Assembly: GCA_001005265.1 (NCBI GenBank)
Contig: CP011392.1
Span: 930,001 to 994,000 of the forward strand
DNA: 64,000 bases
Reading direction: 5' to 3'
Origin: Dehalogenimonas sp. WBC-2
GTDB lineage: Bacteria > Chloroflexota > Dehalococcoidia > Dehalococcoidales > Dehalococcoidaceae
Positions 14,894 through 61,870 of the stretch are shown here, piece after piece; within the stretch, counting starts at the first letter, position 1; each line of letters starts with the position of its first letter. The notes below the pieces were generated by a model. It saw only the letters and a program-made list of their open reading frames with translations. It ran no database searches and had not been told where the DNA came from. The translations under genes were made by a program, and so were the position numbers.

Positions 14894-15135
14894 AGATGTC
14901 CTCCTCTTTACCAGAGTAATGGGATGATTATACGACGAAGTTAGGTTGATTTATAGAGTCTTTTTACAGAATAGATTGGTAGTCGTGGGGCGGTTTTGGC
15001 AGCGGGCATATCGGTGGTGGTGGTGGAGACAGCAAAGACTGATAGGTAAAAGCTCGATGCGAGGAGCGCAGCGACGTGGTTTATACTCTAGCGTTAGCGA
15101 GAGTATTTATACTTGGCAAAGCGGAGAATCCATAA
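14894..15135. other. Intergenic DNA with a short hairpin
   Basis: No gene found. It contains GAGGAGCGCAGCGACG, a remnant of the ATTGCGAGGAGCGNAGCGAC-type repeat, and a 7-bp inverted repeat ATACTCT/AGAGTAT at 15083-15106. Confidence 0.4.
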
Positions 15136-15189: not shown

Positions 15190-15247
15190 CTACTCATTGA
15201 ACCGTGCTGAACGCATCCCTCTCTTACCCAAAAATAAACCCTCAAAT

Positions 15248-15636
15248 AGTTCCAAAACCCATTGACAATCCCACGCTGATGCTATATCATCTGTTCTCTG
15301 TATATCTGGTAGTTAAGAAGAGTATATGAATTATTTGTTTCTTCAGAAAACAACCGGTTGTTTTCATCGGTTTTAATCGTAAAAAGGGAGGTTGTTTTGG
15401 TTGTTTTTGCTTTTTTGAGAAAAACAATTCACACTCCTCAGCCACAGCCGCCTGCGTGCCAAAAGTCGCACCTTGAAAACTGAAGAATTGAAACCTGCAA
15501 ATAGCTGAATTGTTGCTTTGAATCAAAACTCCAGGTCTCAAAAAACGGGTATTTGTGTCAAAACAATTCTCTATTCTTTCTGTTGCCCTCGGATATTTGA
15601 AATTTTTTTACTTTTTTCGCTTGTGACTTTGGAACT
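15248..15636 (+). ncRNA. Noncoding element A: transcribed structured RNA or MITE-like element
   Basis: This 389-bp stretch is homologous along its whole length to 61278-61664 on the other strand. It begins AGTTCCAAA and ends TTTGGAACT, a perfect 9-bp terminal inverted repeat. Blocks of perfect identity with element B include 34 bp (15498-15531) and 23 bp (15547-15569), which contain GAATTGTT and AACAATTC and can pair. A palindrome AACAACCGGTTGTT lies near 15349-15362, followed by more GGTTGTT copies. A sigma70-type promoter sits at 15262-15290. Frames inside it are not conserved between the copies. No target-site duplication is evident. Whether it is a non-autonomous mobile element or an RNA gene cannot be decided here. 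Confidence 0.7.
15262..15290 (+). promoter_or_regulatory. Conserved promoter inside element A
   Basis: TTGACA, 17-base spacer, TATCAT. Element B has TTGACA, 17 bases, TAACAT at the same place although the spacer sequence itself has diverged, which points to selection on the promoter. Confidence 0.7.
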
Positions 15637-15735: not shown

Positions 15736-16191
15736 ATGAACGCTGAAATTACCGAGGTGTTGGATACAGCGATGCTCAAAGAGGTGGCCTCTGCCGCTCT
15801 CTACCATCAGGCCGCAAAAAAGACCGACGACCCGGCAGCTGCCGCCCTGCTGAAAGAACTGGCCGCCTCTGAGGAAAAACATCTCAGCGTTTTGAAAAAT
15901 CTACCCAAAGATATAGTTCTAGTTCCTACGTTAAAAATAGAAACCGTGACTGACCTTAAACTTTCAGATTACCTGAAAGGACCGGATGAACTTAACGGCG
16001 CTGATCTTACTGATACCCTGCTCTTTGCCATCAAGCGTGAGGCTGAATCCGCGGCTTTTTACGTCAATCTGATGGATATTTTCAGCGACCGGCAAGCCAA
16101 AGATTTTTGCCGGATTCTGGCAGACCAGGAACAGGATCACAAGAGACGGCTTGAATCGTTATACAGCCGGATTGCATATCTGGAAAATTAG
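15736..16191 (+). CDS. Ferritin-like diiron protein (rubrerythrin-type four-helix bundle)
   Basis: About 151 residues from the ATG at 15736 with AGAGG upstream (an in-frame TTG precedes it directly). The helices carry the ferritin-like ligand pattern: EVASAALYHQAAKK, then ELAASEEKHLSVL, and in the second half AIKREAESAAFYVNLMD and ADQEQDHKRRLESLY. The two ExxH-type motifs match a carboxylate-bridged diiron site. No rubredoxin domain is present. Such proteins are linked to peroxide reduction or iron handling in anaerobes. The next gene follows after 18 bases and is probably cotranscribed. Confidence 0.82.
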   Translation: MNAEITEVLDTAMLKEVASAALYHQAAKKTDDPAAAALLKELAASEEKHLSVLKNLPKDIVLVPTLKIETVTDLKLSDYLKGPDELNGADLTDTLLFAIKREAESAAFYVNLMDIFSDRQAKDFCRILADQEQDHKRRLESLYSRIAYLEN

Positions 16192-20011: not shown

Positions 20012-20280
20012 AAAATAATAAATCCCGTCCCTATAAGGGACGGGATGAACCCGCGGTACCACCCTATTTCCTCTGGTATCTTATCCAGAGGCACTTTTAC
20101 GGGCACAAATATGCCCTGCCGCGATAACGGTCGGCATCCGTCACGGATTAATCCCTTCTTATGAAGGTTTCATCCAGAAGCTCGGGAGTGATTTTCAAAG
20201 GAATTTTCCCACCCGCTCTCACTATACCGGGTTCGCTGTGGGTCTGTACCCTCTACTCTTCTCCGTCGTTGCTGTTAACG
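20012..20280 (-). promoter_or_regulatory. T-box riboswitch (isoleucine) upstream of ileS
   Basis: On the minus strand the leader contains the canonical T-box AGGGTGGTACCGCGG (20051-20065). Next comes an intrinsic terminator with arms CCCGTCCC/GGGACGGG (20024-20044) and a T/A-rich tail reaching 20012. The stem I region holds AGAGTAGAGGG (S-turn-like) and GAAAATCACTCC, in which ATC (20190-20192), an Ile codon, is the likely specifier. Uncharged tRNA-Ile should pair with the T-box bulge and prevent termination, switching ileS on. A weak promoter-like TTGCTC with TATTCT 18 bases on lies near 20285-20315. Confidence 0.93.
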
Positions 20281-58422: not shown

Positions 58423-61203
<2,781 letters not shown>

Positions 61204-61243: not shown

Positions 61244-61277
61244 AGTCATGTAAGCGTCCATATCATACTGAATTGTG

Positions 61278-61664
61278 AGTTCCAAATCACAAGAAAATAA
61301 ATTGTAAAAAATTTCAATTCCCAAAAGGCAAACGGAAAGTGGCGAATTGTTTTGACACAAATACCCATTTTCTTTGACCCAGAGTTTTGATTCAAAGCAA
61401 CAATTCAGCTATTTGAGGATTTCAATTATTCAGTTTTAAAGGTGCGATTTTTGCATTCGAGGTATTCTGGTTGAGTAGCCGGGGGTTGTTTCCCCTGAAA
61501 ATGAAAAATACTGAAACAACCTCCTTTTTATGATTGAAAACGGCGCAAATAACCGGTTGTTTGCCTAAAACAACCTCTAATTCAAATACTCTTTTTAATT
61601 ACCTAGTGAATAGAGAACAGATGTTAACATAGAGTAGTTGGTGTGTCAATGGGGTTTTGGAACT
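61278..61664 (-). ncRNA. Noncoding element B: transcribed structured RNA or MITE-like element
   Basis: Read on the minus strand this 387-bp stretch mirrors element A (15248-15636): AGTTCCAAA at the left end, TTTGGAACT at the right end, a conserved promoter, CATCTGTTCTCT, a GGTTGTTTT...AAACAACCGGTT cluster, then the 34-bp (61382-61415) and 23-bp (61344-61366) blocks identical to A. Compared with A it has an extra GGTTGTT at the front and an AACAACC in the variable middle, so the paired motifs are kept while the sequence between changes. It lies 74 bases upstream of tRNA-Gly. Confidence 0.7.
61621..61649 (-). promoter_or_regulatory. Conserved promoter inside element B
   Basis: TTGACA (61644-61649), 17-base spacer, TAACAT (61621-61626), in the same place as in element A. 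Confidence 0.65.
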
Positions 61665-61870
61665 TTTTGAGGTTAATTTTAGAAATACGGCCGATGGACG
61701 AGGTGATAAATACTCTTCAATATGAACCGATGCAAACTTAGCAACACACCCCTATCTCTGGTTTTATCGGGATAAACGGTAGGACTGAACTAGCAAAGTG
61801 CAATAGAGCCATATTGCTTATGTTATGATATATTACTGGGATCAAGATTCAATAAAGAATTGGTTTTTTA
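61665..61870. other. Intergenic DNA between element B and degV
   Basis: No gene found. The stretch should hold the degV promoter; TATGATATATTA near 61833 is a possible -10 region. Confidence 0.35.

Follow-up and report, generated by a model that had tools for sequence, protein, structure and literature searches.

Dispersed noncoding repeats in Dehalogenimonas sp. WBC-2 share a predicted promoter with a split set of phage-head genes

Two noncoding stretches of the Dehalogenimonas sp. WBC-2 chromosome, lying in opposite orientations, raise the question of whether they represent a mobile element, an RNA gene, or something else. The window in which they lie, meaning the whole 64,000-nucleotide stretch of DNA analyzed here, comprises positions 930001–994000 of the 1,725,728-bp chromosome (genome G000). 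Copy A has 389 bp (15248–15636, plus strand) and copy B 387 bp (61278–61664, minus strand). The initial annotation, which took them for a MITE-like non-autonomous element, an RNA gene, or both, described their whole-length homology correctly: the copies are 75% identical across the full alignment, the longest perfect blocks measure exactly 34 bp and 23 bp, with AGTTCCAAA at the start and TTTGGAACT at the end of each copy. Their parts, together with the genes behind them, are as follows (window coordinates).

15231–15267, plus: copy A, A-tract and box ending in the predicted -35 (TTGACA at 15262–15267); the same box is found at the terS and capsid promoters
15285–15297, plus: copy A, predicted -10 TATCAT (15285–15290) and a TGTTCT half-site, by its motif a possible GAAC-N4-GTTC operator
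15347–15364, plus: copy A, 18-bp perfect palindrome AAAACAACCGGTTGTTTT
15390–15430, plus: copy A, second potential hairpin in the sequence (arms 15390–15400 and 15420–15430), to which the covariation test lends no support
15468–15486, plus: copy A, boxA-like GCACCTTGAAAACTGAAGA, resembling (and no more than resembling) GCACCTTAACAACTGGATA in the 16S leader of the same genome
15507–15569, plus: copy A, 3' module GAATTGTTGCTTTGAATCAAAACTC...GTGTCAAAACAATTC from a 30-copy alignment (covariance-model match 15503–15577)
15628–15636, plus: copy A, TTTGGAACT, within the homology and not a conserved end
15736–16191, plus: rubrerythrin-like gene 3' of copy A, co-directional (PF02915, 4.7e-11)
61644–61680, minus: copy B, A-tract and box ending in the predicted -35 (61649–61644)
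61614–61626, minus: copy B, predicted -10 TAACAT (61626–61621) overlapping AACATCTGTTCT
61484–61521, minus: copy B, second potential hairpin, arms GGTTGTTTC and GAAACAACC
61427–61445, minus: copy B, boxA-like GCACCTTTAAAACTGAATA
61344–61406, minus: copy B, 3' module by alignment and covariance model
61249–61259, minus: copy B, GGACGCTTACA, the right homology limit common to several other copies
61129–61203, minus: tRNA-Gly(TCC) 3' of copy B, co-directional, followed by ligA (61085–59022)

The similarity of the two copies far exceeds chance, since a blastn search of their own genome yields 57 matching stretches at about 40 loci, with E values down to 1e-140 apart from the self-match. Beyond the presence of two copies in the window, nothing favored a one-off segmental duplication or a chance similarity, and the approximately 44 copies refute it, leaving it a probability of practically nil. 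In the chromosome, 44 dispersed elements were tabulated, their loci being compared with 3-kb flanks, and 29 of them carry both modules described below; the count is approximate, since copies consisting of the promoter only may have escaped detection. With a covariance model, the 3' module is found in 36 strong copies, some of them beyond those obtained with blastn. The 5' module consists of an A-rich box and the -35, a 16–19-nt spacer, the -10, GTTCTCT, and two hairpin-like repeats around AAACAACCGGTTGTTT. The predicted promoter of the family thus reads as the A-rich box AAAATAAACCCTCAAAAAGTTCCAAAACCCCATTGACA, about 17 variable bases, and TAWCAT, with AAAAAGTTCCAAAACCCC as the sequence of the box. 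The 3' module (AATTGTTGCTTTGAATCAAAAC ... TTGTGTCAAAACAATTC) is nearly invariant in an alignment of 30 copies, and the middle region is swapped for unrelated repeats in many copies. The homology passes the 5' end of the two copies by approximately 17 bp (AAAATAAACCCTCAAA) and, in several copies, the 3' end by approximately 30 bp, up to GGACGCTTACA. An exact 9-bp start AGTTCCAAA is found in 20 of 38 copies and an exact 9-bp end TTTGGAACT in six of 30, so the shared terminal inverted repeats proposed earlier lie inside the homology and are not kept family-wide.

Some individual loci show further rearrangements. A dispersed repeat of another kind (TCATTGCGAGGAGCGAAGCGACGTGG-like), present in the window at 15045–15080, replaces the middle of L034, L037, L047, and L033. 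The 3' module of L075 (genome 415674–415601) has an inverted inner part, by which GGCGAATTGTTTTGACACAATTCGCC becomes a near-perfect palindrome, and tandem partial duplications of the 5' module are found in L041 (genome 1426048–1425731) and L026 (genome 1493389–1492817). The window also includes a T-box leader at 20033–20278 on the minus strand (Rfam RF00230, 118.9 bits).

Among the 38 5' modules, the columns of the -35 and -10 are 0.89–1.0 identical, save one -10 column, compared with a mean of 0.59 in the 17-nt spacer; the 15 bp ending in the -35 have a mean identity of 0.93, and the -10 is invariant at five of its six positions. Such a pattern, low in the spacer and high in the hexamers, is as expected if selection keeps a promoter in each copy, and the 5' part common to the copies is, judging from its sequence, a promoter. 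Neither the 5' nor the 3' module has a single pair changed on both sides (A1, A2), and the folding z-scores are weak, with means of -0.9 for the 5' leader and -1.75 for the 3' module; an RNA gene or a conserved RNA fold is therefore not supported. An Rfam search returned no match above the gathering score at copy A or copy B. The RNA-gene half of the initial annotation, for which compensatory changes were to serve as proof, is thus left unsupported. A conserved promoter is confirmed, as are many further copies, with different flanks and with some sites empty in relatives.

The elements have a marked direction. At 33 of the 38 elements with a 5' module the downstream gene is co-directional by ORF calls (34 if the tRNA-Sec gene is counted), and the upstream neighbors of all 44 elements are balanced, 23 having the same direction and 21 the opposite one. 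Between tandem genes, 13 elements are co-oriented and one is anti-oriented (p=0.002); the bias is replicated in the congener G005 (12 vs. 2, p=0.013), and the ratio of 11 to 5 found in the congener G004 is not significant. The genes behind the elements, as named from sequence, include leuS, valS, tuf, gatB, nusA, uvrB, ligA, mutL, and lysA, a set that forms no obvious regulon. Only at ychF, valS, leuS, and miaB are the elements common to WBC-2 and G005/G004.

Comparison with relatives reveals that the elements are old and slow-moving, yet not fixed, because most G005 insertions are common to G004 but some sites are filled in one genome and empty in another. Thus, at L219/L288 and L235/L291, G004 has an element where G005 has an empty site, and the nusA and gatB sites have no same-orientation element in seven congeners, where the native gene start region is conserved. 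No clean empty site was found for the G005 sites L169 and L190 when compared with G004, and no target-site duplication is readable, the empty sites L288 and L291 being too diverged. A species-specific family, as suggested when blastn of copy A in 40 relatives matched only its own genome, was overturned by diverged versions upstream of leuS, each with its own box, in G006, G004, and G005; with congener elements as queries, the matches number 30 in G006, 44 in G005, and 36 in G004. The covariance model did not convincingly find the 3' module in 20 relatives, its single weak match, in G008, resembling coding noise. Searches of plasmids, phages, and viral contigs with the element gave no match, and neither did the exact core pattern in 85k GTDB genomes, from which records near the source genome may be excluded.

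The initial annotation overlooked that genes for a phage head are preceded by this same conserved promoter. Some boxes, in WBC-2 as well as in congeners, lead directly into the gene of a small protein with the motif GAPKGNxNARxHGFYS, followed by that of a terminase large subunit of 440–460 residues. The terS product matches a terminase small subunit PHROG (1e-5); for TerL, the matches are to a large subunit PHROG (1e-5) and, short of the Pfam cut-off, to Terminase_6C (3e-4). Since sequence searches of the PDB with TerL and the capsid protein gave no match, fold comparison was used for TerL; its AlphaFold model, built from 27 relatives and weak overall (pLDDT 61), with a good nuclease domain, matches the nuclease of the G20c large terminase (E 7e-9) and, at E 3e-5, the HK97 large terminase. 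Within the order, TerL is present in 38 of 61 genomes and in 26 of the 32 good ones, mostly in one copy, and 144 GTDB contig stretches encode a relative, 79 of the 80 kept being titled Dehalococcoidia, Dehalococcoidales, or Chloroflexi. At 77 of 99 loci the terS gene adjoins that of TerL, and 33 have a Zn-ribbon-like gene upstream; these recurring neighbors suggest an ancestral location of the pair. The contexts of terS-terL differ between Dehalogenimonas species, and some TerL loci also carry portal, scaffold, and capsid genes.

In WBC-2, two terS-terL pairs and one capsid operon occupy separate loci. The operon (L426:4860–10723, genome 303860–309723) encodes a helix-turn-helix protein, portal (PF05133, 4e-10), a scaffold-like protein, capsid (PHROG, 8e-70), an SU10-type adaptor (PF24175, 3e-6), and finally a 586-aa protein with no assigned function; the 101-aa helix-turn-helix protein that opens it is a candidate regulator. 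The capsid gene occurs in 20 of the 32 good genomes of the order and is single-copy in seven of eight Dehalogenimonas genomes, WBC-2 among them. Its product has 306 residues in six species, and a dN/dS of 0.07–0.10 indicates strong purifying selection on the gene, a feature also of gene transfer agents (GTAs). The head genes are order-wide and mostly single-copy, and thus exhibit both the vertical keeping and the purifying selection by which GTAs are recognized. No integrase was found near the head genes examined, and no tail genes were seen among the head operon and the neighbors read. In genus g2, which is probably Dehalococcoides, terS-terL is kept with a GAACATTTGTGC promoter (L376 in G008 and L392 in G010, of the same family), and the capsid gene is absent from all three genomes searched.

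The capsid operon of WBC-2 carries the box AAAAAAATAAATCCTCAAAAAGTTCCAAAAGCCTATTGACA. A weight matrix built from the noncoding copies only, with a training median of 52.2 bits, gives scores of 61.0 and 59.2 to the two terS promoters and of 55.5 to that of the capsid operon. In four congeners, terS-terL and the capsid operon also share a box, its sequence being particular to each species: in a comparison of the 22 nt that end at the -35, the box of terS and that of the capsid operon have 19–22 positions in common within each of the five species but 11–17 between species. A common trans-acting factor would be the simplest reason for boxes that are alike within species and different between them, and the separate loci, like the dispersed loci of GTAs, would then be switched together. 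Upstream of terS, an order-wide TAGAACATATGTGCTATTAT-like sequence (GAAC-N4-GT[GT]C) is present in 21 of 32 loci, with 0.2 expected. Since this motif resembles the Gram-positive LexA box, DNA-damage control seems likely. In the WBC-2 copies the GAAC-N4-GTTC operator is only partial, with TAACATNTGTTCT-like versions.

As the terS-terL pairs and the capsid operon share the promoter of the copies, we read the family, with a probability of about 0.6, as directional promoter cassettes of a domesticated phage-head system that would bring neighboring host genes under its switch. The 5' part of each cassette would be the promoter of the split head gene set (two terS-terL pairs and the portal–scaffold–capsid–adaptor operon), and its box, beside a good -35 and -10, the putative recognition site of a lineage-specific trans-acting factor. 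A hairpin-rich leader of about 200 nt would follow, and then the 3' palindromic module, with the cassette pointing into the next gene. Activation of the phage-head system, for which DNA damage acting through SOS control is the probable trigger, would make the cassettes fire too and add transcription to the gene behind each; we infer that they spread through the chromosome by a copying process. A model of pure promoter copying fails for the leader and the 3' module, because the capsid promoter has neither. We can speculate further, although rather doubtfully, that the phage-head switch reached about 40 host genes on mobile cassettes linked to the terminase, that particle production would also raise translation, repair, and tRNA genes, and that box and factor would co-evolve separately in each species.

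The best rival, possible although the odds are against it, makes the elements MITE-like, as non-autonomous relatives, with internal deletions, of a mobile terS-terL cassette. They would be moved by the two terminase proteins or by some enzyme in trans, and the direction bias would reflect tolerated insertions. Its key support comes from 352.9–351.2 kb, where the order is 5' box, terS, terL, and 3' module, the last approximately 20 bp past the terL stop. The differing contexts of terS-terL across Dehalogenimonas, the presence or absence of elements at nusA and gatB (seven congeners), L219/L288, and L235/L291, and the RNase H fold predicted for the TerL nuclease are consistent with it as well. 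However, the 3' module accompanies only one of the terS-terL loci examined, and the insertions shared by G004 and G005 mean that movement is slow. Of the earlier MITE-like claim, the differing flanks and empty sites stand, but there is no conserved terminal inverted repeat and no target-site duplication is readable at the diverged empty sites, and the bracketed genes are a terminase pair rather than a known transposase; we know of no case of transposition by a terminase. This rival is compatible with the promoter-cassette reading, and both can hold.

Small RNA genes or cis-acting RNA leaders, acting in antitermination or attenuation with the RNA fold as their functional part, would agree with the strong predicted promoter, the conserved palindromes, the nearly invariant 3' module, and the boxA-like motif resembling the 16S leader; they are unlikely in view of the missing compensatory pairs, weak z-scores, and lack of an Rfam match, as well as the replacement of the middle region by unrelated repeats in many copies. 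Upstream regions of terS often contain the phage pac site, and the common box lies directly upstream of terS, with about 40 copies around the chromosome, as might be imagined for dispersed pac-like packaging-entry sites used by the terminase of a GTA-like particle. That the box also occurs at the capsid promoter and ends exactly at the -35, that the promoter elements are the conserved part, and that a pac site could face either way relative to genes make this explanation very improbable.

Returning to the promoter cassettes, the closest comparison is with GTAs. RcGTA and CcGTA have domesticated, vertically kept head genes over several loci, all switched on together by a dedicated activator whose action extends to distal promoters (PMC9632790, PMC11150451); in Caulobacter, this activator works at the cluster and at distal loci, with antitermination via NusA, NusG, and NusE (PMC9632790, PMC11150451). 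By analogy, the regulation of the Caulobacter GTA may be the nearest working model for the cassettes, and the boxA-like motif in the leader, a resemblance only, would fit the idea of antitermination. The Dehalogenimonas system, known from genes alone, likewise has domesticated, vertically kept head genes at several loci but differs in its approximately 40 noncoding promoter copies beside housekeeping genes, which, to our knowledge, have no counterpart in GTAs. Elements of the cfPICI type encode a terminase, portal, and capsid of their own but lack tail genes. The same applies to the Dehalogenimonas set, in which no tail genes were seen among the genes read, but its loci are split, order-wide, and mostly single-copy, with no integrase near the genes examined. 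MITEs, Correia, and BOX elements are dispersed short noncoding repeats with promoters near genes, like the cassettes, which in turn have no conserved terminal inverted repeat, share their promoter with phage-head operons, and are strongly directional. RAYT/REPIN systems combine an enzyme gene that is widely retained at low copy number with numerous short, scattered sequences related to the flanks of that gene, an arrangement also seen here, although the enzyme is a terminase pair and not a Y1 transposase. No literature linking GTAs to Dehalococcoidia was found in a search outside of which most subscription journals lie, and a 2026 paper on Dehalogenimonas comparative genomics makes no mention of terminase or capsid. 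The head genes seem to be a new example of the GTA or cfPICI kind, and the dozens of noncoding promoter copies by housekeeping genes also appear to be new.

An anonymous repeat is in this way tied to a previously unremarked, order-wide set of phage-head genes in organohalide-respiring bacteria. Being near-constant within species and different between species at both head loci, the box, a putative binding site, offers a clean case of concerted binding-site turnover at many sites. Two questions become testable: do these bacteria produce particles that carry DNA, and are the host genes adjacent to cassettes co-induced with them? The mobile promoter copies also suggest that a regulon may be built around a GTA-like system.
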